From Chaetoderma sp. LZ-2023a (lineage: Eukaryota > Mollusca > Caudofoveata > Chaetodermatida > Chaetodermatidae), in contig CM067369.1 in assembly GCA_034401795.1 (NCBI GenBank), positions 86,127,129 to 86,191,128 of the forward strand: 64,000 nucleotides of DNA. Reading direction: 5' to 3'. The notes beneath the pieces are model-generated. The model had not been told where the DNA came from. It did no database searches and saw only the letters and a list, made by a program, of their open reading frames with translations. A program made the position numbers and the translations under genes. The stretch's first letter is position 1. Each line of letters opens with the position of its first letter. Shown here one piece after another: positions 17,502 through 53,554 of this stretch.

Positions 17502-18004
<503 letters not shown>

Positions 18005-18005
<1 letters not shown>

Positions 18006-21000
18006 CCAACCACTCTAAAAAGTGGTATCAAATTTCTGCGCTGCATGTCGCGTGTGTTAATTAACTTTTAGACCACAGTCTGGTGGGACTCTGTTCGGTG
18101 CGCTGCAAGAGCTATGTGACTTATCCTGCACCGTGTACCCAGTTATTGTACATGCATATATAATTACCAATATAGCCATCACTGTTAATGGGCAACTTCC
18201 AACTTTCAAACTGCCATCACCAGATGGAAACTTTGCAACAATTGTTTAAATTATGTATCAGTAATCTGACTGTCTAATGGACATCCTTATCATCCGTTCT
18301 TCTTCACCGTCATAAGAGTGAGCCGCATCAACAGTCTGCCTGCGGAAATCAACCCTGCATTCACGATCGTGCCATCTCACGCTACTCAACTATAGCATAT
18401 CAACTTCAGTGACTTATGAACTCTTACAGTACCGATGACCAATAGGTACTCAAGTAACTATACTAGTGTGCCTTTAATTATTTCCGCAAATGGGACTGAT
18501 GACTAATAGGTACCTACCGGTATCTCCGACTGCATTTTTATGCTTTCCGTTTCATACTATAAATATTACCTTTATTTCTGTGTGCTCTCAACTTACAGCA
18601 CCGTTTAGGTCCTATGACCTGTGATATATCGTTAGCACTGTATTAGTTAGTTGTGTATATGGCAAGTAGCCATCCTAGCTAATATTGTAGCTCGCGGGGA
18701 TAGGCGCTGGTCCGCCATGATGTTCCCATCCATCGCGCCGCAAATGCACGATGTACAGGAGGGCTGGTTAGCTGCAGATCTCGGGGTTGTGGATCCCGTA
18801 TCGCATCTCTCCAGAAGGTACAAAAACCGCTAGAGCCAGTGGAACACTGATGTTCCAGTGGGGCCGTGTGACCATTGCCGCTGAGATTGAACCACATGGT
18901 TTCATCCCAACTATTCCTGTCACCGGTATGCCTATCCATACTAATTTAGAGATATGGAATAAAGAATAATTAAACAATGATGAACTTAATATACTATACA
19001 AACAAGTTTATACGTTTGACAGTAAATGAGCACAGTAATACACAACATAGATCCATCCCGTGTTCTTTCCACGTGGTGTCATCAGAGGTACCACACAGAT
19101 CTTTGAATCCGCAGAGGTATCCCCGCAAGAGAAGTTTCCGCGTCGAAGTCACTAGGTAGTTTAATATAAACTAGTATACCCCTAACACACACAGAAAGAA
19201 AATATTGTTGTTGCGAGAGGAAAGTGCCTCACGCAGGCCTCTGTCATAGGAAAATGCCTTCATCGCCGAAGCGGAGGAAAAGAGCTGGCAAAAAGGGCCA
19301 CTCTTTTGTTCAACAGAAAATGCTAAGTGCTGAAAATCCTAGTGAAACTACTGTTAAGGTGTTGCATGCTGGTTTACGTGGAGATGGGATGAATGTTTTC
19401 CGAAGAATTCCCAGGTCACCATCTTATGTAGTTCCGAAATGACTGCATTAGTAGTTGCCGCTTAATTTATACGGGCCTTCTGCTACATCTTAACCTACCA
19501 ATTGGTTGTTAGGAATGGAAACAAGCTTTGGCCGCAAGTGGCATGGTTTACTACCTAACATTTAGATACGTTTATCCGTTGGGCGCAGATGCCCTGCTTC
19601 CCTAAGGTTGTCCCGCATAGCATCTACCTCCAAGTATAGAATGCATACATGTCACAGAACAAAGCTCTGAAAAAAATAGTGATCGGCTACCCGGCTCCGT
19701 AACCACACATAACATCACTAGACGAGTTTTACAGTTTACACAAGCAAATCGAAATACTGACATGTCATTATGGTGGGGATGGAGAGATGGATATCCATCA
19801 CGAGCGTCCTTCCCGTGAGGGCGTGGTGGGCTCCAAGGCCCCACCCAGACACTACAATGAGTTGGATGGAGATCCGCATCTTGTCTGTTACTGAGTGCTA
19901 TGGGGCTGACATTTGACCTGTCATTAGAGTTATTTTCCATGATGCCCAGAGTTGCACTGCAGGCCAGTATCACAACATACAAATTAATATTATTATTGTT
20001 TCGCAGTGCTTCCTACTTTGGCGGGGGAATCTACCTAATAAATATCCGAAGACACGCGGGGGCATGTATGTAAATCGGCACTTTAACTATCACCACTCGG
20101 AAACCTCCGATAGTTTCACAGGGTCGGATCCGGTCAACGTGTCGATTAATAAGCATACAGCCCTGTAGGTGGGACTTAGAATACACCTTCCGTATCCTCT
20201 GCATGTCGTAAGAGGCGACTAAAGGAGGTACGGGTGAGGTAACCCTGACAGAAACCTCGAGTGCTGAAGACGGAGGTTCCAGGCCGCACGGCGCACTCTA
20301 ATAAACCACGCACTTAACGCTTATGATCATGTCGATAGTCACTTAGGACTGTCGGTATGATCAGCGAACGAAAAGAAGAAGAAGAAGATAAGCATACGGC
20401 TGGTGGATCATGGAAAGAGACAATCACTAAATAAATATACGAGGCCCTATAGGTAACTGGCCAATTTTCCACAACCTTGCCGGTGCATGGGGCTACATTA
20501 CCACAACAACTGGAAAAGAGGCATACACTATGCGTCTCTAACGGAGAATTGGTCCCCAATCACTTTAAACCTATCCTATCCAGCTGAATAGCCAGGTTTA
20601 GTCGATAACATGTCAGGGTCAAACATTTAGAGCATGATCAGCGACCTCAGTGTAAAATTGATGCTGGCGGGATCGTGGTGCGGATATAATGATGCTGTAT
20701 AGTATTTCCTAGTGTACTGCAGCCTAGAGATTTTATAAATAAACAACACATATTAACTAGATGGCTTCTCGCCATATACACAACTAACCAATACACAATT
20801 TAACGAATGTAATGATTATAGTATCACAGGTCATTAGACCCTACGGTGTGGCTAGTTGACAGCACCCACAGTACACAAGGACAATATTCACAGTAAAATA
20901 GAAATTATAAGAATGCGGTCATAAGACTGGTAAGGTACCTATTAGTCATCAGTACCATTATACGGAAATAATAATTAATGATTCAATAGTATAGCTACTT

Positions 21001-23265
21001 GAGTACCTAATAGTCATCAGCATGGAACAAGTCCAAAAGTTACTGAAATTGAGGAGCTAACCTATGAGTAGCGCAAGATGGCATGATCTCTGAAGCTGGA
21101 AAGATTTCCACAGAAAGACATCTGCGGCAGGTATCCACAGGCAGGTATCTGCAAGCAGGTCTCGGGAAGCTGACTTCCTCAGGCAGGATGGATACGGCAC
21201 CTTCTCTGGACAGATAACGGAATGGTTCAAGAGATGCCCATTAGATAGTCATTTCACTTATACAGGATAGAAACGGTTTGTTGCAAAGTTTCCGTCTGGC
21301 GACGGTAATATGAAAGTTGAGAGCAACCCATTAACAGAGAGGGCTGCTTATGTATTTTATGCATGTACAATAACTGGAACATGGTACGGAGTACATTGCA
21401 TAGCTCTTGCAGCGTACCGCGCAAAGTTCACCAGACTGGTTGAAAAGTTAATTATTACACACGCGACATGCAGTGCAGAAGTTGAAGTCCACTTTTCAGC
21501 GTGGTTGGCAGATCCGGTGAGTCATCCACCAAGAATCACCATCAGCTCTACATTCCATAGAATTACATCTGGGCCCGCATGGCCCTCCGACGGAAAGACT
21601 CCCTTATAAAGGTCCGGATGTGGGAGTTATTAATTTAAGTTAGTTTATTACACGTGGATGGCTGTCCGGGGGTATACAAAAACTGTGGAAGCCGAGGACT
21701 CGTTACCACCGCAGATGAGCTGAAATCCGATTGGCACCGGATGATGTAGGTATCACCGTAGGTAAGCAGTTGCACACGTCTATCCCGATGGTCTAGTCGT
21801 CTGGCGCGGGCCGGCTTCCACGCCGGTGATGCTCCTGATTCTCGATTTTTCACCCATTTTATACTACTCATGACATCAGAGCCAGGCGCCTCAGCCAGTT
21901 AGTGGCCGAGCAGTAGCCAATCAACGTGTAGAAGAAGTGGTGACGTGACTATTACGTACACAGTACCTTCCTTATCTATTTATACATACACGCAATTAAG
22001 ATGTCAAGAGAAATATTTTGAAGATAATTTAAGGGATTTTCCGATTTCAATAATTTAAACGGTTCTGAAATTCCTGTTTTATTCTGGTCTTGATCAGTGC
22101 CAAGAACAACGAGGATGATATAACTAAAGTTATTTACGGGTACCTACTCGGTACACTATAAGCACGCACTCGCTTCCAATTCCGAGATGTGTTGGCAAGG
22201 AAGTTCTGACGCACGCACATGCGCACCACACGGTCTAACGGACATAGCCATTTTTAATGAACACTTCTCTCATAGGGCTTATATATGCGTACCATCCTAC
22301 CAAGGGGGGGGGGCATTCTTGGAGCGAATCCGGAATGGCCATCCCGTACCCAGCTTAGCTGGGATGGCCGGTACCCATCCGGTCGATCCGTGTTACAATA
22401 TGTTTTGTTTCTATATAAAAGTTCTAGGATGCAGTATGCTAGGTAATACCGAACAGCAACATTATATCCACATCACCATATTCCCCCCAGCATCAAATTT
22501 ACACTGAGGTCGCTGATCATGCTCTAATTGCTCGAGGCTGACATGTTACCGACTAAACCTAGCTATTCTAGCTCGATAGGATAGGTTTAAAGTGGTTAGG
22601 GACAATCTCTCCTCAAAGACACATTGTGTACGCCTCTTTTCTGGGGATGTAGTGGATATGTAATACCACGCACCAGCTAGGTTGTGTAAAATTGGCCAAT
22701 TACCATAGGGCTTCTTATTTATATCGAGTTATTGTCTCTTTCCACGCTCATCCAGCCGCAAGGGTTAATAATTGTTTGAATTCCCCATTGATGCGTTAGC
22801 AGGATCTGACTCTGGGAAACTATTGGAGCAGTGATAATTAAAGTGCCGATTTACACACACCTCCCACTGTATCTTCGGATACTATTTAGTTTAGACCCCC
22901 ACCCCCACCCCCCTCACCGCCCCCCAATGTAGGAAGCACTGCGAAAGGAAATTAATTATATTGTGACACCGGCCTGCAGTGCATCTCTGGCATTCTGGAA
23001 ACTTAACCCTAATGACAGGTAATATGGTAATTCCGTTAACACACGGGTGACGGATGAGATGCGGACTTCCATCCAATTCGTTGTAGTGTCTGTGTGAGGT
23101 CTTAGAACCCACCACACCCTCATGGGAAGGACACTGGCGATGGATATCCATCTCTCACTCACCACCGTAAACGATATAGTACTTTCTAAATTACTTTTGT
23201 GAACTGTAAACTTGTCCTGGTGAAGTTATATGTGGCTGCGGGACCATGGTGACTGGATCATCATA
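18005..23265. repeat. Block A: alternating inverted repeats of a large non-coding element
   Basis: The arm 18005-18690 is matched, inverted, by about 20760-21510; shared phrases include 'gctgcaagagctatg', 'ggaaactttgcaacaa', 'gatgactaataggtacc' and 'gttagttgtgtatatggc'. The intervening segment 19740-20650 is matched, inverted, by 22500-23260. The order is therefore X, S, X-inverted, J, S-inverted. Segments 18690-22430 recur in the same orientation at 34650-39230, and parts recur inverted at 40320-41350. There is no coding sequence. It probably belongs to a large retro- or foldback element; the class is not settled. The MULE at 23284 is inserted in its right part. Confidence 0.7.
21857..21878 (-). 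promoter_or_regulatory. CRE-like site plus TATA box in block A
   Basis: On the minus strand TGATGTCA is followed after 7 bases by TATAAAATGG. The same arrangement, with a perfect TGACGTCA, is at 38682-38703 (minus) and 33374-33397 (plus). This suggests one promoter type shared by the repeated element. Confidence 0.45.
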
Positions 23266-23283
23266 TGATTCGGGAGCCAGAAG

Positions 23284-23375
23284 TACGTTATGTCAAAACC
23301 GGGCGAGAACTGGCAAAACCAGGCGAGACCAGGCACAACCAGGCGGGACCAGGCGCAACCAACCAAAAAAACTGG
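23284..23375 (+). repeat. Left inverted terminal repeat of the MULE
   Basis: The first ~75 bp match the minus strand of 30857-30780 with few mismatches. The arm is made of alternating 'aaaaccaggcgaga' and 'ccaggcacaaccaggcg' sub-repeats, a foldback-like composition. Confidence 0.8.
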
Positions 23376-24337
23376 GCGCAACCGAGCATGTTTGAGGGTA
23401 TATATCCATCGCCTAATAAGCTTTGGTTTCTAGATGGATTACCTATTTCAAATATTGTATAGGTAATCATGTTATTAATATGAAAAACTCCCAATAATAT
23501 GCCAGCCTTAATAGACAGGTAGACAAAATAAAATACAAGCCGGAACTGATTCGTCAATGGCTAAGACAACAATTCAACAGCTGTGACTCCACCTCACTCT
23601 ATTATTGCGGTTAAGGCCACTACTGTGATGGTCAAAACCACTAATTACACACACGCGCACCTACACTATATGTGTGCATAGGCCATACATGATCTATGAG
23701 TACCAATTGTTCTAGGTGTTATCCATTGATGATTGTTACACGGGTAAGTCAATGATTATGACTCCACCCCACCCAGTTGGTCTATTGAAAATCCTAAATA
23801 TATTTGTATATAATCAATTTGTATATAATTCAATTCCATCGCCTAGGGAAAACAATCCGATGACGCATGCTATTTCTTGTCCAAGTGTTAAGGATTAAGT
23901 TGAAGTTGTATGATTTTGAGCGCTGATCTATGAATGATCTTATGCAAGCCTATATTATTCTAGCCAATATTAATTCAATACTGCTCTCGCCAAGCTGTGA
24001 AAGCTTATGTTGATGGCCATGGTGGTGTGGGTGGGGGAAGCCATACCTGGTCGTCCTTACAAAAAGTGGGTATAAAAGTAATAAACCCGTAATCACATTT
24101 ATCAGTTTTTCAACTTCTCGATAATTATAACGGTTGCCGCAGTACATAATTGTTACTTCAAGAATTTAATATGTGCCATTGTTGTGTTTTTATTTGCTAT
24201 GTGCATCTTAAAGTTTATAAGTTAACATTTTACGTCAAAATCAAAACAAGTTATGGGCTAGTTAGGCCAACGTGTGTTTTAATTTGTTCCGTGTGGTGCT
24301 ACTATTCTGTATTTGTGGATCATCTCTTCTCCTGGAC

Positions 24338-24346
24338 ATGGATTTT
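24338..24346 (+). CDS. Possible first coding exon of the MULE gene (M-D-F)
   Basis: ATG-GAT-TTT is followed directly by a consensus donor GTAAGT (24347). The next strong acceptor downstream is TTTTTTTCAG ending at 25791, where a basic coding stretch begins in the matching phase. A very short first exon is a guess from splice signals only; no transcript evidence exists. The intron between would hold three copies of the hairpin MITE, which suggests later insertions into the transposon. Confidence 0.3.
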
Positions 24347-24399
24347 GTAAGTATTTAAAAACTAAGTCCTTAAAGTTTTTGCTAGTGGAGACGCCTCTG

Positions 24400-24565
24400 T
24401 AGTGGTCTTGAAGAATGTCTATTTGCAAGGCTAAGAGATGACTATTTTTAAAATTTTACCACTCGGTAACCGAGCCAGTCATTCCAGTGGTAAAATTGTC
24501 AGAAATAGTCTTCTCGTAGCAAATATCTTGATTTTCCATACAAAACTTAGGCACTAAAGGGTTAA
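24400..24565. mobile_element. Hairpin MITE copy in a probable MULE intron
   Basis: The core 'attttaccactcggtaaccgag' region is followed by the complementary 'ccagtcattccagtggtaaa'. The right end reads AAAGGGTTAA (24556-24565). The left end has decayed. Confidence 0.7.
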
Positions 24566-24839
24566 TACCTATTTTACTGTCTAAGCTATGCAGCTCTGTG
24601 ATACTATACGTTGTTTTTTGGTAGAGGGAAATGTCGGCATGCGTGTGAATCTCAAATTAAAAAATTTTCGAGCACCCCCCCCCCCCCAGCCCATCCGCTA
24701 AAAAGTAAATTATTGATTTTACTAACCCGCAGCAATTTTCACTAGCCCAATGTTTGTTCTTACAGGCCCAAATTTGAATATTTCCTTTATAGTAAGTCAT
24801 ATATGGAAAGCCTCTTGAAGACCTCTAACAATGTTATCG

Positions 24840-25290
24840 TAACCCATTAACACCCATACCAGCCCAAAACGTAACCAAGCCAGTCATTCCAGTGGTAAGT
24901 TTTCAAAAATAGAATTCCCTTGGGTCTGCAAATGGACACTTTCTTTGAGGAAATTGAAATTCTTTTGCAAAATTTGATATGGAATATATTTGTTTCTCAA
25001 ACCTTATTTTCTCCGGAGATCACTTGGCCTACTAACCCAGGCGTTTAGCTAACCCGCATGAAAATGAATATAATCGGTTCAGCGGGATAGTGTTAAAATC
25101 GGCCCATGCTATTAGTCAGTTATAGACCGGTTTCTATGTATAAATGTTGTTGAACACCTTTCATATAGACTACGAAGACCAGAAGGCAGTTTATTTTGAA
25201 AATTGACCACTTGAATGACTGGCATTCGCTTGGTCTACAAATGGATATTTTATGAGAAAAAAATAAAATATATTATATAAAAGGGTTAAC
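24840..25290. mobile_element. Two degraded hairpin MITE copies
   Basis: Half-copies: 24850-24960 has 'ccagtcattccagtggtaag', 'aaaaatagaattcccttggg' and 'ctgcaaatggacact'. The region 25190-25287 has 'ttgaccacttgaatgactgg', 'tctacaaatggatatt' and a terminal 'aaagggttaac'. Both lack one arm. Confidence 0.55.
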
Positions 25291-25724
25291 ACCGTATTCA
25301 CCCTACTCACAATGGTCAACTACTTATAATAATAAGACTAAACTAACATCATTATGTGATTCACACCTAAATAATAGCGTTTAATTGAGGCGCTTATTTG
25401 CCAGTATTTGGACATTATTGCGCATTTAGCTCGTGTTGTAATATTTAAGGCGTTTATTTGTTAGTTCCCAATGCTAGGGTCTAGACTCACGCTTGCGCAT
25501 TTAGCTCCGTGCCTAGACGTTGTTTACGCAAATCGGTAACCGCCTGCTGGTCTGCCCTCCCACATTTGACGACTGCTCTCCAATCAGAGGGCCAGTAGAT
25601 CGTATCGGGCAGCTGTTAGGCGAAATTAAAATAATAATTTATTCTATTCATTTCGGCCACAACTAAATATTTTAACACATGCTTACATGTATTTAACAAA
25701 TGAAACATTTTTTCACTAGCCTAC

Positions 25725-25748
25725 TACTACTACTACTACTACTACTAC

Positions 25749-25782
<34 letters not shown>

Positions 25783-25787
25783 TTTTT
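25725..25787. repeat. (ACT)n / (ATT)n microsatellite
   Basis: A run of 'act' units passes into a run of 'att' units just upstream of the TTTTTTTCAG acceptor at 25791. It may form part of a polypyrimidine-rich intron end. Confidence 0.9.
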
Positions 25788-25791
25788 TCAG

Positions 25792-26022
25792 ACTGGACGA
25801 TCAAGGAGAGTGGGTTTGCCACCTAGAGCGTACACACCCACACACACACACACACATATCCGTGTCGTGTTTGTAGAGTTAGCTGTATCAACAATTGCAT
25901 GTTTTGTGGACAATGTGATCGGTGGGTTCACTATAAGTGTGACAATTTAAGCTTAGGCAATGCAACGACTTTGAACAAATTAAAGATTTACTATCCTTGT
26001 AATAAGTGCACACACCCACACT
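25792..26022 (+). pseudogene. PHD finger segment of the MULE-encoded protein
   Basis: The frame starting at 25863 shows a full C4-H-C3 PHD pattern: Cys 25863, x2, Cys 25872, x10, Cys 25905, x2, Cys 25914, x4, His 25929, x2, Cys 25938, x19, Cys 25998, x2, Cys 26007. The Trp two residues before the His ('DRWVHYKC') is also typical. PHD fingers bind histone tails or other partners, so the protein may read chromatin; that is inference. Upstream, the 25792 reading frame (basic 'TGRSRRVGLPPRA') joins through a (CA)n tract that shifts frame, and a stop follows at 26022 just before the OTU frame. Both look like small indels in a once continuous gene. Confidence 0.7.
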
Positions 26023-26812
26023 GATGGAAAATTCGATTTCCAGATGGCCCATGACCGATTGCCATGGCAGCATGTAAAACATAAAATCCTTCAATCAGCA
26101 GTTATCCTAGAACGCATTCTACTTCGGGCATCGTCAGACTTCCATACATCAACCAAGGTAGGCGGCGAATTCGAATTAGACGTCGAAAGCAAGTCAATAC
26201 TCATTAAAGTCGGACAACCATCAAATGTACAGCCCATTCGTGTAACAGCAGATGGGAATTGCTTGTTTCATGCCATTTCTATGTTGCTATCCGGTAATGA
26301 AGCTGCAGCACTCGAGCTAAGGATGCGAACTGGTGACATTTGAAGACCATTACCGTGGCAAATGGGAGAATACACCCGTGCACATGGTGTCACCAAACTA
26401 CACTACCACAGCAATTGACTGCTGTACCAAGGGCCAGTTTTCCTCGGCTTGGACGATGATGGCAGCCGCGTCAGTAGTTCGCCACGATATAAGATCTATC
26501 TATCCAGCAGTAAATGGGCATAAAGATAAGAATATTAACATATTAAATGTAACATTCTCCGCACGCGAATCTGCCATTTATGGAATGTGGGCGCTCCCCA
26601 TCACGTGGACGTCATGTTCTCCGGTTCCACCAACAACAAACGCATGGAGACCCGACCACTTCGTTCCCTTGAGAGTTAACAACAATGTCAATGCCATGTC
26701 ACGTAAGCGGTCCTATTCTGACGTGTTACAGAGTCCACCGCAATCAACATCACACAAACAACCGCCAAGCAAGAAAGATTGTTTGTCTGCCAGATCATCT
26801 CAGCTAGCTTGA
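26020..26812 (+). pseudogene. OTU-family cysteine protease domain of the MULE, frameshifted
   Basis: The first frame (to 26343) contains 'RVTADGNCLFHAISMLL', the OTU catalytic motif D-G-N-C with the cysteine codon at 26260. The second frame (26333-26812) continues the fold with 'SSAWTMMAAASVV' and 'IRSIYPAVNG', and supplies the catalytic histidine in 'WRPDHFVPL' (codon at 26657). The 132-residue spacing between Cys and His suits an OTU domain. OTU proteases cleave ubiquitin or similar proteins; in a transposon the role is unknown. One frameshift near 26335 separates the halves. The tail 'SRKRSYSDVLQSPPQ' is basic and could be a nuclear localisation region. It ends at a TAG-containing stop at 26810. 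Confidence 0.82.
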
Positions 26813-27077
26813 ACACCAATAGAAATGGCAAGCTTATTGCATACTTTTACACACTCGCATGCAGGTTGTGAGAAAATAGGAATAAATAAAAAAAAAACTT
26901 TAAAGTTTACTTTTAGAGGCTTATAATATGTACCTCGATGTAAAGAACCACTATCAATATTAACTTATGACAAATTAATTCCGTTTTGTATAAATACCAT
27001 TTTCTGTAGTTGTAGATTTCTCTCTTGCCTGCCTCTCTGCCCGCCTCTCTGTCTGTCTGTCTGTCTGTCTGTCTGCC

Positions 27078-27130
<53 letters not shown>

Positions 27131-27135
27131 TTCAG
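26813..27135. repeat. Intron-like spacer with (CTGT)n and (TTA)n
   Basis: A+T-rich sequence with 'ctgtctgt' repeats (27047-27075) and a long 'tta' run (27078-27130), ending in TTTTCAG at 27135. It could be an intron of the MULE gene. Confidence 0.55.
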
Positions 27136-27357
27136 TCTGACGAATTAGAATGTAATGTGGCGTCGATACCAAGTCAGGAACAACATCGAACCGTCACATG
27201 TCTTGCAGATGAAGTGAGTACTCAAACAGTCAAATTATTTTCAAATTATTTTCCAAAGAAAAAGAAACCATCGGATCCATGTAAAATCACTGGATTACTC
27301 AATCAGTGGATCAGTGGAACCTGCGGACGCCCATGGACCAAAGATAAGAATATTTAA
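27136..27357 (+). pseudogene. Putative linker exon of the MULE protein
   Basis: After the TTTTCAG acceptor, an open frame starts 'SDELECNVASIPSQEQ' and reaches 'FSNYFPKKKKPSDP', a lysine-rich stretch that may be a nuclear localisation signal. It ends at a stop at 27355. A GTGAGT donor-like site at 27213 could end the exon earlier. No known domain is visible. Its assignment to the MULE gene rests on strand, position and splice signals only. Confidence 0.4.
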
Positions 27358-27359
27358 AA

Positions 27360-27450
27360 ATATTAACCACTGGTATTTCATTGGTAAAATGTCTAAAATA
27401 GTCTTCCTAAGTCTGACTCTGTGCAACTAGTTACTTTTAAGGGTTAATAT
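27360..27450. mobile_element. Half copy of the hairpin MITE
   Basis: The right half of the family: 'ccactggtatttcattggta', 'aaatagtcttcc' and a terminal 'taagggttaa' at 27439-27448. Confidence 0.55.
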
Positions 27451-27483
27451 CCATCTTTTTATTAATGTAACATAACATTTTTA

Positions 27484-27723
27484 TTAACCCTTTAATGCCG
27501 AAGTTTTGTCAGGAAATTTTCAATTTTCTCATTGGAAATGCCCATTTGCAGGTCAAGAGATGACTATTTTTTATATTTGACCGTGGGAATAGCTGGCTCG
27601 CTTGGCGAGCCAGGTATTCCAGTGGTAAAATTTCAAAAATAGTCTTCTCTTGACCTGCAAGTGGACATTTCCCAAGAGCACTGCCGCGGCCAGTATTGGC
27701 CGGCTTAGGCATGAAAGGGTTAA
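27484..27723. mobile_element. Complete palindromic TTAA-type MITE
   Basis: The best-preserved copy. TTAA at 27484-27487 and 27720-27723 flanks termini CCCTTTAATGCCG and GGCATGAAAGGG. Nearly all of the 232 bp between folds into one long hairpin around 'ctggctcgcttggcgagcca' near 27605. Target TTAA and CCC ends point to a piggyBac-type transposase acting in trans; this is inference. A 3'-only relic (…aagggttaa) is at about 27986-27998. Confidence 0.85.
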
Positions 27724-28037
27724 TGTAACATATATTTTTAACCATTTGACACACCAAAAACGGCTTCTGAGTAGGCCTACCGTAAAACTGGGTTACCTCG
27801 CCAGATTTCAGATTAATTTTTTTTATAACTGGAATACTGGTGTTTAGAGCACTTGGGCTGCCCTCTGTATGAAACCAAGGAGTTGAAAATTAATATGTGT
27901 TTATTTCTTGAGATAGAAGCCATTTTATATGGCCGGCGAAGTTACACTGTCTTGTGAAGTAATCCCGTTTAACCATAACTAACTACCTTTTAAGGGTTAA
28001 TATCGATCCTTATTAATTTCCATGGCCTTTATGTTTC

Positions 28038-29934
28038 AGCTTGGTGCTAGTATGTTAGTGCAGTCGCCACCACCGGAGCTATGTTATTCCTTTAGCTCAC
28101 TGTCGGATCTTTCGATGGACGACACTCGCGAAGGACTGGAAGATGTACATCCACAACCAGAAATATCAATTGACACCAAATCCGTGCCAAATGCAATTGG
28201 TGAACGTCCGTTACCAGAGGGAGGTAGACAATGTAACTTTCTGGACGTGAATTACGTGACCAACGAACTCAGGGAGCCAACCACCGAGCCACTTACCACC
28301 ATGCCTAGAGGAATCAAAGAAAATCAACACTAAATAGTGGATAACAGCGAGAACATTCAGGGACGGGAGAATGGACAACAGAGTCAGTTCTGGGACGATT
28401 GTGGCGTGTGGATGTCGGGTGCTCCATCAGCAAAGACAACTTTTGTTTCAACACCTGGTCAAAAGGTCAAGAAGGTCGTACTGAAAAATGGTTTATACTG
28501 CCTTGAACGACAATGTGATAAGAAGACAGTGTTCTTGCCTCTTGAACCACAACCAGACCCATCTTCAGTCACAGTTCTACAGAGATACTACGCAAAACAT
28601 AAGGTATCGATGGAGTATGAGAAGAGAGTGTCATGGATAGAAGGTGAAGGTTCCAATGCTCGAAAATTAGCCTGCCACGAATATAGGGGTGAACCTCCAT
28701 GCGTCAGCATGGATTCAGAAACCGCATTAAACACGTATATAAGAACTAAACCAGCTGCGATTAAGAAAATTAAAGAAAGTGTTAAGACAAAAAAGCCAGA
28801 TGCGTTGTATACCGAGTTAATCACTAATATAGAAGATCGTCCGAGAAATTTTAGACAGGTATATGATACTAAATATAGGGAGCGAAAGAAGGAGAGACCA
28901 GCTGGGGTGAAAACTGGCAACTTTGCAGATCAAGTGCAGATTATGGAGAATATGGTACATACCCATCCATTCGTTGAGAGGGTCACAACCACAAGAGACA
29001 AAGTCCCCATTGTAATTTTATTCACAGAAGAGCAAATCAGTGATATTAAGCGTTTTTGTTGTTCCGGAGCAACCTGCCACAATACTGTTTTAGGATTTGA
29101 CAAGACTTTCAATTTAGGTCAAGTACAATTGAGCTTGCCGATACGCCAAGCCCACCAATGATAGGGACAGATGACGAAAAAGCGATGACAAAAGCGATAG
29201 CATTTTCATTCCCAAAGAGTACAAAATTGTATTGCACCCGTCATTTGAAGGGTAATGTTTTGGATTTCCTAAAGGACAAAATCGGTGTAAGCGAGAAAGA
29301 TCGATCAAGAATCTGTAGCTCAATTTTCGGCACAAACGGTGTAGTTAGCGCAAACGACTCCATCGTATTCGAGTCACATGTGCAGGATGTAAGAGCGTCG
29401 TTGGAAGAATTTCCAAAATTTAAAACCTATTTCGATTCCCGTATCGTATCATTGTTGAAGTCTAACCTAGTTGCATCTCAGATGCCAGGATACGACGACG
29501 GACTGACTACTTGGACGAATAACAATTGTGAAAGCCTAAATCATGTCTTCAAACATGCCATAGATTGGAAATCTCAGCCGCTAAGTAAATTGGTTGAGAA
29601 ACTATACTCAGTAGTCCTTAGACAATATCACGAGTTAGAGCGTAGTTTGATCAGACAGGGTGATTATGTTCTCTGTGATGAGTACAATCGATTTGCGGTT
29701 CCGGAAGCAATATGGTGCACCAGGGAGAGCCACCAAAGAAAGAGACATTTCCAGAGGTTCCTTAAAGCAGCTAAAGAAAGAGACTCACGGACAATAAGGT
29801 CAACAGACGGAACGAGAGTCGTTATACCATCAAAGAGTGGGGGTAAAAAACCTGGGCAAAGAAAACTAGTGAAATGTGCCAAAACAACAAACATTCCAAA
29901 AGCATCATGTGCTATTAAACTTGAGTTAAGGTAG
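28038..29934 (+). pseudogene. MULE-type transposase, with internal deletion
   Basis: An acceptor-like TTTCAG at about 28037 opens the frame; one in-frame stop (28331) separates two open segments that share the frame (to 29161). Residues include 'VLKNGLYCLERQ' and 'RPRNFRQVYDTKYRER', typical of the N-terminal DNA-binding part of animal MULEs. The first catalytic Asp is in 'VLGFDKTFNLG' (codon 29099). The second is in 'MIGTDDEKAMTKA' (codon 29170), followed by 'YCTRHLKGN', and the catalytic Glu by 'NNNCESLNHVFK' (codon 29530). Only about 23 codons and a frame change separate the two Asp residues, far fewer than in the family, so an internal deletion removed part of the RNase-H-like core. The C-terminus is basic. 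The enzyme would have cut transposon ends in the nucleus; this copy cannot. Confidence 0.88.
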
Positions 29935-30590
29935 AAATGCTAGCCAGTCAGTCCTGTAGTAAAATTGCTGTCCATTCCATAAATACTATTTTCGAAAACA
30001 TATCACTGGTATAACTGGCTCGATAACTGAGCCAGTCATTCCAGTAGTAAATTTAAAAAATAGTGTTCTCTTGGACATTTTCTATTAGAATTCGGTAGGG
30101 CATAAGATGTATATGGGATATAAATTAAATGTAATATTTAAGAAGAGAGAATTGTCTTATAGAAAAGTCCAAGAGAATACTATTTTGGAAAACTTATCAC
30201 TGGTATAACTGGCTCGATAACTGAGCCAGTCATTCAAGTAGTAAATTAAAAAAAAATAGTGTTCCCTTGGACGTTTTCTATAAGAATTCGCTAGGGCGTC
30301 AGATGTATATATATGATATAAATTAAATGTAATATTTAAGAAGTAGTAAATTTTCAAAAATAGTGTTCTCTTGGACATTTTGTATAAGGCAATTCGGTAG
30401 GGCGCCAGGCATAAATTAAATGTAATATTTAAGAAGATAGAATTGCCTTATAGAAAATGTCCAAGAGAATACTATTTTGGAAAACTTATCACTGGTATAA
30501 CTGGCTCGATAACCGAGCCAGTCATTCCAGTAGTAAATTTTCAAAAATAGTGTTCTCTTGGACATAGTGTCTCTGTCGTAATATATTCTT
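29935..30590. repeat. Local amplification of the hairpin MITE, 3-4 copies
   Basis: Hairpins centred near 30019, 30209 and 30515 all read 'cactggtataactggctcga' with complement 'gagccagtcattc' and 'agtagtaaatt'. A half copy lies at 30340-30385. Flanks such as 'ataaattaaatgtaatattt' are also repeated, so a unit of flank plus hairpin was duplicated, not inserted independently. The array lies between the transposase stop and the right end of the MULE. Confidence 0.8.
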
Positions 30591-30769
30591 GTTTTCTTAA
30601 ACTGCAAACTCTGCCCTATCCATATGACTTTGTCCCCATCCCATATATATATATAGCCTATCATATTATATATTATAATCCCGCTTTCATAAATTGCTTG
30701 AAAATATAATTAACGCCCAGAATATGCGCTGATGCCAGTCCAATTTGATCTAAACAAATTTATCTCTCA

Positions 30770-30857
30770 GGATTTGACCTGGTTGCGCCTGGTCTCGCCT
30801 GGTTTTGTCTGGTCTCGCCTGGTTTTGCCAGTTCTCGCCCGGTTTTGACATAACGTA
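30770..30857 (-). repeat. Right inverted terminal repeat of the MULE
   Basis: Inverted copy of the left arm, reading 'cctggttgcgcctggtctcg' and 'gcccggttttgacataacgt' on the plus strand. It ends at the TACGTTATG terminus near 30857. Confidence 0.8.
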
Positions 30858-30874
30858 ATTCCCTTCGGGAGTTA

Positions 30875-36641: not shown

Positions 36642-37685
36642 TACACCTGTGCAAAAGTTAAGCACCACCCTATTTTTACGCACATGCGAGGGTATATTCA
36701 TGTGCTATGAAGAAAGCAATAGCATAAACATTTATGTACCCATCCATCTTAGTGCAAGAGGTAATAATGCAACTAGAGGAATGCTGATTATGATGGTGGG
36801 GAAACACTGTATGTTTTTGTTTGAACTTGAAAACGAGGCCTGAATATGGTTACGTTGACACAACTGACAACTATTGCCCTACAGTTGACACACGTGGCTA
36901 GATTGTCATTAATGGTGTCTGAAAACGAAGTTTAACATCTGTGCACGAGTTTGAGACTGTCATTATTAATACGTTGCACCACCTCAGACGCTCCTCTTTG
37001 TGGTGTGCAGTGAGGAGAGGACGTCTGACAGGTCTCCTAGCTTTCATGCCAGCAGCATACAGTCTCCTTTTGACGGTAGACATTGACACTCTATTGCGCG
37101 TTTCCCATTGCTGGCTGAGCACTCTGCTGTTGGTGAATGGAGATCTCCTAACAAGGCGTACTAGGGCTCGATCATCACGGGCAGTAGTCTTCTTCGGTCT
37201 TCCAGATCTAGGCCTGTCCTTCACCTCGTTAGTTTGCCCATGTTTTGCAATCAAACGACTGATTACAGTATGGTTAATGTTCAGCTGTCTGCCAATCTCT
37301 CTGCATGACATACCAGTGGTATGCATGCCTATGATTTGCCATTTCACACGATCACTTAACCTTCGTCTTGCCATAGCGGTTCACAATCAAGAGCTAATTC
37401 TCTCTGTACAAATAAACCACGGTCATGAACACAAAATTCCTAATCTTGTCGCCTAAATCTGTATGTAATGTTCTACACCTCAAACTGCACTTTTACATAA
37501 CTGAACACGTGTGCTGTTTCCCGCCACGCACGGACATCAAGCGGCGTGAAGTCATGCATGCATGTGCATTTCGTACTTGGAATTATGTCAGCTAACGCGG
37601 GGACAAAAAGTATGGCAGCCTAGTTGTACCATCATGTTTCTACGTTCTATTGTTTTTGCTGGTGCTTAACTTTTGCACAGGTGTA
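36642..37685 (-). mobile_element. Complete Tc1-like element, internally deleted
   Basis: 1,044 bp with 28-bp-class terminal inverted repeats: TACACCTGTGCAAAAGTTAA at 36642 and its exact complement ending at 37685. TA dinucleotides flank both ends (36640-36641 and 37686-37687). Intact Tc1-type elements are usually 1.3-1.7 kb; the missing length corresponds to the catalytic half of the transposase. It is inserted in block B between sequences that are contiguous in block A. Nearly identical to the copy at 1-559. Confidence 0.93.
36898..37374 (-). pseudogene. Tc1/mariner-type transposase lacking the DDE domain
   Basis: 158 codons start at 37374 (MARRRLSDRVKW). An N-terminal HTH (residues about 5-50, 'GMSCREIGRQLNI'), a GRPR-like linker ('DRPRSGRPKK', about 54-63) and a second HTH (to about 125, 'SMSTVKRRLYAAGMKARRP') are complete. 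At 'KEERLRWC' the protein stops resembling the family: the DDE segment that should follow is absent and a 25-residue unrelated tail ends at 36898. Such a product could still bind the terminal repeats and might compete with full-length transposase; that is inference. No other ORF in the element carries DDE motifs. Confidence 0.88.
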
Positions 37686-50679: not shown

Positions 50680-52390
50680 TCTCTCTCTCTCTTGTCAAGA
50701 GAGGGGGGGGGGTAGTGGATCGCGAGCCAGACACCCGCATTAGGCGTCGATGCATCTATAGTGGGTGGAAGGCTCATGCGTTTCGTCGAGGCTTGGCGAG
50801 GTGTGACGTCAGACAGTCTGGTCCTGGGATGGTTATCCCAGGGTTACATGCCGGAGTGGTGGGACTTTCCACCACAGAATCTGTCTTTGGCACCTGTCTG
50901 GACACCCGTACCAAGGGAACCAGACAAGTTAGAAGCCATTCAAAATGAAGTGTCAGGTTTGCTTCTGAAGGGAGCAATAAAACCAGCAAACCAGAACACT
51001 CCAGAACACACTATTCAAACATGTTCCTTGTCCCCAAGAGAACAGGGGGATGGAGATCCATACTCAATCTCAGGCCATTAAATTGGTTTATCCATATGCC
51101 TCAGTTTCAGATGGAAACTCCGAGGTCGGTAATGGCAGGATTGAGGAAGGGAATGTGGTGTGTATCGATCGATCTGAAAGATACATATTTCCACATTCCA
51201 ATGAACAGGAGTTGTCACAGGTTTCTGAGATTTGCGTTTCAGCATCAAGTGTGGGAGTTTGTAGTCCTCCCATTTGGCCTGTCGACAGCTCCACAGGTTT
51301 TCACCAGAGTGGTCCTTGCGGTGACAGCGTTTCTCAGAAAAGAGAACGTGGCGCTTCACACCTACATAGACGATTGGCTGATCAAAGCAGAAACATCAGC
51401 CAGGTTAGAGGTGGTCACTGCTCTGACTCTGAAGTTACTTTCAGATGTAGGCTGGATAGTCAACAAGGAGAAATCCGAGTTGACACCCACTCAACAGTTC
51501 GTTTATTTAGGGATGCGATTCGATCTCGAGGAGGGCAGGGTTTACCCGTCAGAGCCCAGTGTGGTGTCTGTTAGCCATCTTCAAGAGTTTTCGATTGGGA
51601 AACCACATTCAGGCGAGGCGGTTTCTTCAGATGATGGTCTCCATGGAGCAGGTAATCCCGTATGCTGCTCTGATGCGAAGACCTATCCAGTTGTATCTGA
51701 TGTCTCTGTGGAAACAGAGAACAGAACCCCTGTCAAAGCTGGTGCCAGTTTTGGAACCAATAATGTCGCATCTTGTATGGTGGAAAAAGCGTCAGAATCT
51801 CCTAGTAAGGGTTTCGCTGCACCTACCCCACCCCCAGCTGGCCAAGAGAGCCAGCTGCATATCAACCTGTTGGAAATGATGACAGTGGAACTGGCATTGG
51901 AAAAGTTTCTTCCAAAAGTCAGGGGCAAGGCGATATTGATACGGTCAGATTACTTGACAGTAGTATCATACATAAATCGCCAAGGCGGGACCAAGTCACC
52001 CACACTATTTATGAAAGTGTGGCACTTGATTCAATGGTGCAGGAATTACTCAGTTGTTTTGAAAGCAGCTCACATTCCTGGGCGATTGAACATTCTGGCG
52101 GATGTTTTGTCTCGGAGACAGAGAATTCTGCCAACAGACTGGTCTCTCAACCCTCCAGTTCTTCACAGGATCTTCGAGCATTGGGGCAAACCCAACGTGG
52201 ACTTGTTCGCCACAAAGGAAAATGCTTAAATCATGACTTATGTCTTTCCGATTCCAGATCCAAATGCCGTCGATACAGACACTCTGGCGATAAGCTGGAG
52301 AGGGATGCACGCTTACGCGTACCAACCCACCATTCTTCTGCCGAAGATATTGGTGAAGATCATGGAGGAACCGTGCCTGTCCTGCTAATA
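50680..52390 (+). pseudogene. DIRS reverse transcriptase and RNase H
   Basis: The N-terminal part (50761-51030) gives 'GWLSQGYMPEWWDFPP' and 'LEAIQNEVSGLLLKGAI'. A one-base shift near 51020 leads into a 402-codon open frame (51021-52229). RT motifs are 'VPKRTGGWRSILNLRPLN', 'VSIDLKDTYFHIPM' (first Asp), 'LPFGLSTAPQVF' and the active site YIDD (51363-51374). RNase H follows with 'LHINLLEMMTVELALE', 'IRSDYLTVVSYINRQ' and 'NILADVLSRR'. A premature TAA at 52227 is followed in frame by 'TYVFPIPDPNAVDTDTLA', so the gene originally ran on to about 52390. The enzyme copies DIRS RNA into DNA. Confidence 0.92.
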
Positions 52391-53554
52391 GCGCCATTTT
52401 GGCCCAGCAGGGCGTGGTTCACAGATCTTCAAGATCTGATGGTGGACAATCCAGTGCAGTTACCCGAGATTCCGAACATAATCTCCCAGGTCAAGGGACG
52501 CTTCCTACACGAGCGTCCCGAAATGTTCAAATTAACTGTGTGGATGTTATCAAACAACGTTCCACGTCGGAAGGCTTTTCTCGACAAGCTGCGAATTTCA
52601 TCGCAGCCTGCGAGAAGGTCAACCTTCAAGTCATATAACAACAAGGTTAACAGATTTGCAGACTGGTGTGAGGGAAAGGGTATTGATACCTTTCAACCCA
52701 CTATTCAGCAAATAGCAGACTTTCTCTGTGAGCTGTTCTTTTCAGGACTAGATTCTGTCACAATTGCTGGATACAAGTCAGCTTTGGCATCAGTTATCCC
52801 TTGTCTAGATAACAGGGATAGTCCAGAGGTGGCCCAGTTGAATGTGATGGTGAAGGGAATGAGCAATCTCCGACCGAGATAACCGGTAGTCATTCCAGCC
52901 TGGAGTCTATCTAGTGCTTAAGGTACTGGCCAAGCACCCTTTTGAACCGGTACGTTGGGCTAGTCTAAAGCATTTGACTCTAAAGGCGGTTTTTCTATTG
53001 GCAGCTTCCTCAGCTAGAAGGCGCGGTGAGATCTATGCACTTTCAGCAGAGAGGGACCCATTTATTGTCTCCGGAGAGGGTCTGCGTCTACTGCCAAGAG
53101 CAGAGTTTATGTTAAAGAATCAATCTTTGAGATATCCCCGCAAACCGATCATGAAACCGAAACTAACTAGGTTTGATCGTGATGCCAGTGTCTGGTGCCC
53201 AGTCCGTGCTTTGACTAAGTACAAAAAATGGACAGACTCATTACGGTTGAATGATAGACATCTGTGGATCTGCCATAAGGAGCCATAAGGCGCCGCATCC
53301 ATAGATTCTATCTCTCGTTGGGTAGTCGAATGCATTCAGACTACCGGTGAGATTACGACTGGGCACCAGGTGCAATGTGCAAGGGCACGATGTTAGAGGA
53401 ATAGCCGCCTCTTCCGCCCTTTTACAATGGTGTTCCGTTTAAGGACATCATGGCTGTTGCACAATGGTACTGTGAGTCCTCTTTCATGGATTACTATATG
53501 AGGGATGTGTCAGACTCCGCCAATCCACTCGCTTTAGCTGTTTTGAAACAATAG
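52380..53554 (+). pseudogene. DIRS tyrosine recombinase, frameshifted
   Basis: The first frame (to 52882) ends the RT-linked part ('LLIAPFWPSRAWFTDL') and then gives a core-binding domain ('YNNKVNRFADWCEGKGID', 'IQQIADFLCELF'). After a stop, 52914-53288 has the first catalytic Arg in 'LAASSARRRGEIYAL'. The H-x-x-R box 'HDVRG' is at 53386, and the nucleophile region 'FMDYYMRDVSDSAN' has the Tyr codon at 53492 or 53495. The stop is at 53552. All R-H-R-Y residues are present but at least three frame changes separate them. In DIRS elements this recombinase joins the circular DNA copy to the chromosome, without an integrase. Confidence 0.9.

Follow-up and report, generated by a model that had tools for sequence, protein, structure and literature searches.

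A 64,000-nucleotide stretch of contig CM067369.1 from the mollusc Chaetoderma sp. LZ-2023a (hereafter the window, meaning this whole stretch) contains a dead member of a low-copy family of Mutator-like elements (MULEs), here called family A, whose gene is predicted to encode, on four phase-0 exons, an N-terminal PHD finger and an OTU protease domain followed by a DDE transposase. In the reading that we prefer, to which we assign a probability of approximately 60%, the PHD finger would bind histone H3 methylated at lysine 4 (H3K4), the OTU domain would remove ubiquitin, and the exon that encodes both would be lost from or exchanged between elements. An earlier note on this DNA, made from its letters alone, had placed the three domains in one transposon. 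This claim was borne out; the domains belong to a single family that is bounded by terminal inverted repeats (TIRs) and flanked by target-site duplications (TSDs), and 7 of the 10 two-ended copies that we examined carry all three domains in order on one strand.

Domains, limits and gene model of the element

The element is approximately 7.6 kb long (approximately 23,277–30,863 of the window). Its features are as follows, with coordinates in the window.

23269..23276, no strand: left TSD TTCGGGAG, 8 bp, identical to 30864-30871
~23277..23366, forward strand: left TIR, with the outer motif TACGTTATGTC followed by 10-bp minisatellite units
24338..24346, forward strand: inferred exon 1 (ATGGATTTT), donor GTAAGT, phase 0
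25721..25783, no strand: CTA/TAT microsatellite ahead of the exon-2 acceptor, the left breakpoint of the exon-2 loss in copy L040
25792..26827, forward strand: inferred exon 2, which forms the PHD-OTU cassette and starts and ends in phase 0
25863..26009, forward strand: PHD finger, C4HC3 (PF00628, E 3.2e-5, 24.3 bits, cut-off 24)
26230..26680, forward strand: OTU-type cysteine protease domain, limits approximate (Asp 26251, Cys 26260, His 26657)
27078..27130, no strand: TTA microsatellite ahead of the exon-3 acceptor, the right breakpoint of the exon-2 loss in L040
27136..27213, forward strand: inferred exon 3, 78 nt, phase 0, acceptor CAG, donor GTGAGT
27528..27678, no strand: internal palindromic repeat, among the foldbacks of the earlier note, situated within the element
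28040..29934, forward strand: inferred exon 4, MULE transposase (D1 29099, D2 29170, CxxH 29233, E 29530)
29942..30565, no strand: 3' subterminal palindromic repeat array, whose unit number differs among copies
~30776..30863, reverse strand: right TIR, containing the 10-bp minisatellite
30864..30871, no strand: right TSD TTCGGGAG, matching the left TSD

The C4HC3 PHD pattern that had been proposed at 25863-26009 was confirmed by a PF00628 match above the cut-off. For the OTU domain, the D-G-N-C motif (26251-26262) and the downstream His (codon at 26657) were confirmed as residues at the proposed place, and both are present in family-A copies; the Pfam match is below the cut-off, with PF02338 E values of 0.016 for the window fragment, 0.0048 for the window OTU read through, and 5.4e-4 for the open copy L039. 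The D, D, and E residues proposed for the MULE transposase were found at codons 29099, 29170, and 29530. The window transposase scored 25.1 bits with PF10551 against a cut-off of 27.6, which was exceeded in two better copies, L053 and L048 (28.0 and 30.3 bits). The spacing in transposase P0002 is D-68-D-119-E, and its match to the IS256 transposase (E 0.038) was among the NCBIfam matches, all of them below the cut-off. The CxxH motif, which we take to mark MULE transposases, reads CTRH in the window at 29233 and is mutated to CTCY in P0002. The MULE superfamily is characterized by a DDE transposase domain, TIRs, and a TSD of about 8-11 bp; the domain and TIRs are present here, and the TSDs of 8-9 bp fall within that range.

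The left and right TIRs of the window copy (approximately 23,280-23,361 and 30,780-30,861) align over 82 bp with 78 identical positions, and the 10-bp minisatellite is present in both arms. The single pair of inverted ends described in the earlier note consisted of foldback repeats, and this part of its account did not hold. The palindromic repeats at 27528-27678 and 29942-30565 were rejected as element ends on the basis of their internal position and their recurrence inside other copies, and the true TIRs and TSD lie outside the interval 25792-29934 that the note had covered.

A search of the animal's own genome (2.44 Gb) with the left TIR yielded 40 matches, 40 of 43 candidates having been scored. 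Twenty stretches around these matches were fetched, and ten two-ended copies, the window included, were examined. Of those outside the complete seven, L046 carries the OTU domain and the transposase, L042 carries the PHD finger, a piece of the OTU domain, and the end of the transposase, and L040 carries the transposase only. Nearly all copies begin with CGGAAGTACGTT and end with AACGTAATTCCC, the left end being slightly altered in the window. TSDs of 8-9 bp were found in 9 of the 10 copies (with one mismatch in L050 and of low complexity in L047; L040 has none). The sites are not fully independent, because L039, L049, and L052 share flanks as segmental duplicates, as do L040 and L054. At positions 79-5021 of L050, together with L051, the PHD-OTU unit occurs three times in tandem with a period of 1,996 bp; the first two units in L050 are 99.95% identical over 1,990 bp, reflecting either a recent duplication or an assembly artefact, and were not used as evidence.

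Among aligned copies, the exon-1 donor is kept in 10 of 10, the exon-2 acceptor CAG in 9 of 9, the exon-3 acceptor and donor each in 10 of 10, the exon-4 acceptor in 12 of 12, and the stop codon in 13 of 13. The exon-2 donor GT is kept in 6 of 8 and is altered in the window and L041. Phase-1 candidate donors within exon 2 were dropped; the junction ATG/GTAAGC was seen in 6 of 8 copies. All GT-AG junctions of the inferred gene are in phase 0, and therefore the PHD finger, the OTU domain, and the transposase could form one spliced polypeptide on four exons; for the same reason, the PHD-OTU exon could also be skipped in frame.

The window copy itself is dead. Its PHD and OTU regions lie in different frames, the OTU region is itself frame-shifted near 26333, and exon 2 has an in-frame stop and a donor changed from GT to GC. 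In-frame stops occur in the copy, and approximately 136 bp of the transposase are missing between D1 and D2, at 29125-29129, as measured by the difference in alignment offset. In L039, exon 2 is open, with a frame of 416 amino acids.

Pairing with transposases, selection and possible exchange of the PHD-OTU exon

The genome was searched with the PHD-OTU region of L039 (130 matches in 99 clusters), the transposase of L053 (94 matches in 70 clusters), and the transposase of a second family, family B (148 matches). All 99 PHD-OTU clusters were compared with the 70 L053-transposase clusters and the 148 family-B rows. For 51 of the 99 PHD-OTU clusters, a transposase on the same strand was found no more than 10 kb downstream (no more than 5 kb for 46), and none of the 99 was paired in any of the other three placements (upstream or on the opposite strand). 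The pairing expected by chance was approximately 0.014 for the first set of 30. Viewed from the transposases, the PHD-OTU region lies upstream in 15 of 26 family-A clusters and at 11 of 39 family-B sites; the family-B count covers 39 of the 148 rows (at least 87% family-B identity, one per site) plus 20 of the 127 rows of another search, with a 12-kb limit, and one of the 11 pairs is 11 kb apart. The genome searches scored the best 126 of 653 candidates for the L039 PHD-OTU region, 83 of 408 for the L053 transposase, 150 of 235 for the family-B transposase, and 126 of 1,686 for the additional search just mentioned, and absences among their matches are not proofs. The pairing of the PHD-OTU region with the transposase is real and directional, and the module is not universal.

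The earlier note had also raised the alternative that the PHD-OTU region is an independent host gene into which a MULE had jumped. Such nesting is rejected by the copies with TIRs and TSDs and by the genome-wide pairing in the same order; moreover, the 29 sites recognized by the Pfam OTU model neither overlap a PHD-OTU cluster nor have a listed transposase within 10 kb. No distant relatives were found in viral contigs for either the transposase or the PHD-OTU alignment. At G000:C12:159818399-159821479, distant PHD-OTU and transposase matches lie 931 bp apart in the same frame by coordinate; they perhaps constitute a single fused frame, the transposase match having internal stops.

Family B is represented by L059, which has an open PHD-OTU frame of 368 amino acids, whose acceptor and donor are in phase 0 as in family A, and a truncated MULE transposase downstream. 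Its TIRs of approximately 106 bp comprise a 10-bp minisatellite of a sequence unlike that of family A, and its TSD is 8 bp (CTTTTATG). The family-B OTU has N-H-F in place of D-H-F with the His kept; OTU matches to Pfam at E 5.4e-4 (L039) and 6.3e-4 are below the cut-off. The 7-mer CGTTATG is common to the outer motif of family A and the repeat unit of family B, both TIR sets being minisatellites with a 10-bp period; it is a possible transposase-binding motif, and the sharing could be due to chance. A PHD-OTU region within 12 kb upstream is lacking for many family-B transposases whose frames of approximately 600-690 amino acids are open (for example, at C16:11053841 and C8:67890439), which reflects either exon loss or a lineage that never had the exon.

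We compared family-A rows with the single family-B copy L059 for the proportions of nonsynonymous (pN) and synonymous (pS) differences. For the PHD finger, pN was 0.17-0.21 at a pS of 0.71-0.83 (nine rows), and for the OTU domain, pN was 0.16-0.20 at a pS of 0.68-0.74 (nine rows, 151-260 codons), with a pN of 0.35 over the 44 codons of L042. The C-terminal part of the transposase had a pN of 0.42-0.46 at a pS of 0.70-0.75. The synonymous sites are near saturation, which makes the pN/pS ratio imprecise, although the excess of silent changes is large. As judged from these codon alignments, the PHD finger and the OTU domain are shown to be under strong purifying selection between families A and B.

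The identities of the two parts of the gene are discordant. Between families A and B, the PHD-OTU region is 65-70% identical in the longer rows and 55-68% in the shorter ones, whereas the transposase is 35-38% identical. Four pairs of a third family, D, were found at C11:207.05, C12:96.31, C15:4.23, and C4:13.44 Mb, two of them spaced at 1.0 and 3.2 kb and two at 7.3 and 7.8 kb. Their transposases are 60-68% identical to that of family A, and their PHD-OTU regions only 39-43%; over the same PHD-OTU segments, families A and B are 64-67% identical. Relative to family B, the D pairs are 41-48% identical in the PHD-OTU region and 30-36% in the transposase. Because family D thus combines an A-like transposase with a distant PHD-OTU region, the identities are most simply read as pointing to MULE lineages having exchanged the PHD-OTU exon, with unequal rates possible. 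Rate differences without any exchange, namely a fast transposase in family B and a fast PHD-OTU region in family D, would concern this step only and seem to us less likely; they gain some ground from the fact that the comparison is one of identities of damaged, partial matches, and they sit poorly with the third-family distances, which are even: the PHD-OTU region of family D is about equally far from A and B, and the family-B transposase is about equally far from A and D, which fits clock-like histories with different branching.

Predicted function, competing explanations and neighbouring elements

When compared with solved structures, the PHD profile matched chains of MLL1 PHD3 first (E 2e-6 to 6e-6, best 2.2e-6) and chains of an Arabidopsis-type ARID4 and of DIDO1 next, and the family-B PHD alone gave the same order. 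The CDRWVH of the family-A PHD aligns with MLL1 PHD3 and corresponds to CGRWVH in family B, and L039 has the C4HC3 pattern. MLL1 PHD3 binds di- and trimethylated H3K4 (H3K4me2/3), and the substitution W1594A or H1596A impairs binding (PMC8022399, in excerpt). Judging from the spacing, we read the Trp and His of C-x-R-W-V-H as probable equivalents of W1594 and H1596. With the C4HC3 pattern and the cage Trp present, the PHD finger resembles H3K4me3 readers and is a putative reader. Structure matches of the OTU domain were weak (OTUD1, E 0.055; VCPIP1, 1.9; OTUD7B, 2.0).

In the mechanism that we propose, the PHD finger would bind methylated H3K4 and thereby tether the transposase to promoter chromatin, and the OTU domain would remove ubiquitin at the promoter or from the transposase complex, avoiding silencing or degradation. 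A broader proposal, which we advance tentatively, is that this phase-symmetric exon for a methyl-H3K4 reader and a deubiquitinase is a swappable accessory of animal MULEs that may be lost, regained, and exchanged among the transposase lineages within one genome and that would direct insertions toward active promoters and remove ubiquitin at these sites. If true, a reader of active chromatin and an anti-ubiquitin enzyme would be united in a single transposon protein, and a swappable exon would offer transposons a route for trading accessory functions. MULEs are known to insert near genes (PMC6446971, in excerpt); an H3K4me3-reading PHD finger would be a direct cause of this preference.

Several observations weigh against the reading stated at the outset. 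No listed transposase lies within 10 kb downstream of 48 of the 99 PHD-OTU sites, and the PHD-OTU region is absent upstream of 11 of the 26 transposase sites in family A and of 28 of the 39 in family B. Frame shifts split exon 2 in most copies measured, and the pooled pN/pS within family A is near neutral (0.73 for PHD, 0.75 for OTU, and 0.67 for the transposase), which fits copies that are for the most part dead and too young for the ratio to be informative. The OTU domain scores below the Pfam curated cut-off in every protein tried, and a single-sequence fold prediction of the window OTU was uninformative, with a mean predicted local distance difference test score of 30.7. Finally, the exchange rests on identities of partial, damaged matches with no tree, and two of the D pairs are 7.3-7.8 kb apart.

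Copies with the same ends and without PHD and OTU, which the earlier note had named as evidence that would count against it, do occur. L040 lacks 25786-27076, a stretch between two TTA-type microsatellites that corresponds exactly to the PHD-OTU exon, and keeps exons 1 and 3 and the transposase. We read this copy, together with the 11 family-A transposase sites lacking the module, as accessory-exon loss and not as a refutation; we infer that this exon, which is symmetric in phase, can be lost. Because many copies have no PHD-OTU region upstream, the module appears to be accessory and not needed in cis by every copy.

The same facts also accommodate an optional isoform, in which exon 2 is skipped to give a transposase-only form beside the PHD-OTU form and the OTU domain mainly guards the transposase from ubiquitin-dependent degradation, with no chromatin role. 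Exon 1 joins exon 3 in phase, L040 retains precisely the parts that such a transcript would need, and many transposase sites are without the module. However, a pure protease role needs no PHD finger, which is kept along with the OTU domain between families A and B, and the distant matches also begin at the PHD finger. We consider this explanation possible, at odds of about one in three.

Capture of a host gene fragment with no role in the element is far less probable and, in our judgment, very unlikely. MULEs tend to acquire such fragments (PMC6446971, in excerpt), and the many copies without the module would agree with a passenger, but the purifying selection between families, the conserved splice phase, the recurrence of the PHD-OTU region in several MULE families, and the absence of any overlap between the 29 Pfam-recognized OTU sites and the PHD-OTU sites argue against it.

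Other elements were observed in the window. Just upstream of the MULE, a long inverted pair at 20035-20754 and 22397-22889, approximately 78-87% identical over several blocks, is probably a separate foldback-ended element. On the forward strand at 50949-53288, an integrase-type SAM domain (PF02899, E 6e-4) comes after a reverse transcriptase (PF00078, E 6e-24); together they look, we presume, like a DIRS/Ngaro-type retroelement. The N-terminal helix-turn-helix part of a Tc1/mariner-type transposase (PF01498, E 2e-17) lies on the reverse strand at 36898-37380, and a CACG microsatellite of 500 bp lies at 17502-18004.

Comparison with known transposons

The earlier note had called the combination little described. 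This holds for PHD and OTU together, in that no MULE carrying both was found in open-licence PubMed Central papers (Repbase was outside the scope), and neither 'PHD' nor 'OTU' occurs in the text of a bivalve transposon survey (PMC10294476) or an arthropod MULE survey (PMC13359780). It does not hold for the separate parts, since the excerpts cited below already describe PHD alone in Rehavkus, OTU alone in MuDR-6_HM, and Ulp1 and PHD in Mutator.

According to excerpts of PMC2836005, Ulp1 and PHD domains occur in transposases of both Mutator and Ginger1, and OTU occurs in those of Ginger1; Ginger1-9_HM has Ulp1 and PHD, and other Ginger1 elements carry OTU. Where PHD is listed in these elements, the accompanying protease is Ulp1, whereas it is OTU in the family described here, and Ginger1 differs further in its integrase-type transposase and in the C-terminal position of its protease and PHD domains. 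RAGL transposons have a RAG2-like PHD finger, that of a sea urchin element binding methylated H3K4 (PMC7204232, in excerpt); in contrast to the present arrangement, this finger is on a separate RAG2L protein with kelch repeats, a partner to the RAG1-like transposase.

The closest relatives in print, Rehavkus and MuDR-6_HM, are tabulated together with Phantom in PMC6446971, to excerpts of which the following comparisons are limited. The MuDR-6_HM group of Cnidaria consists of MULEs with an 'Ovarian Tumour Gene' (OTU); it differs in that neither a zinc finger nor a TIR is listed for it. Phantom has a TSD of 8-10 bp or not indicated, a TIR of 18-613 bp or none, and no zinc finger or one of the FLYWCH or SWIM type; the TSD and TIR of family A are within these ranges, and its finger is a PHD. 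Rehavkus, a MULE-related group listed from Arthropoda and Annelida, has a PHD finger, a 9-bp TSD, and a TIR of 26-400 bp, with a minisatellite preceding the 3' copy of the TIR. Family A resembles it in its PHD finger and MULE-like transposase, with a TSD of 8-9 bp and a TIR of 82 bp. It differs in its OTU domain, which is not mentioned for Rehavkus in the excerpts, and in that its 10-bp minisatellite is part of both TIRs; with a palindromic array preceding the 3' TIR, its layout does not match the Rehavkus description exactly. Compared by descriptions, the printed features fit Rehavkus better than Phantom, and the element in the window is possibly a Rehavkus relative, a comparison made by printed features and not by transposase sequence.

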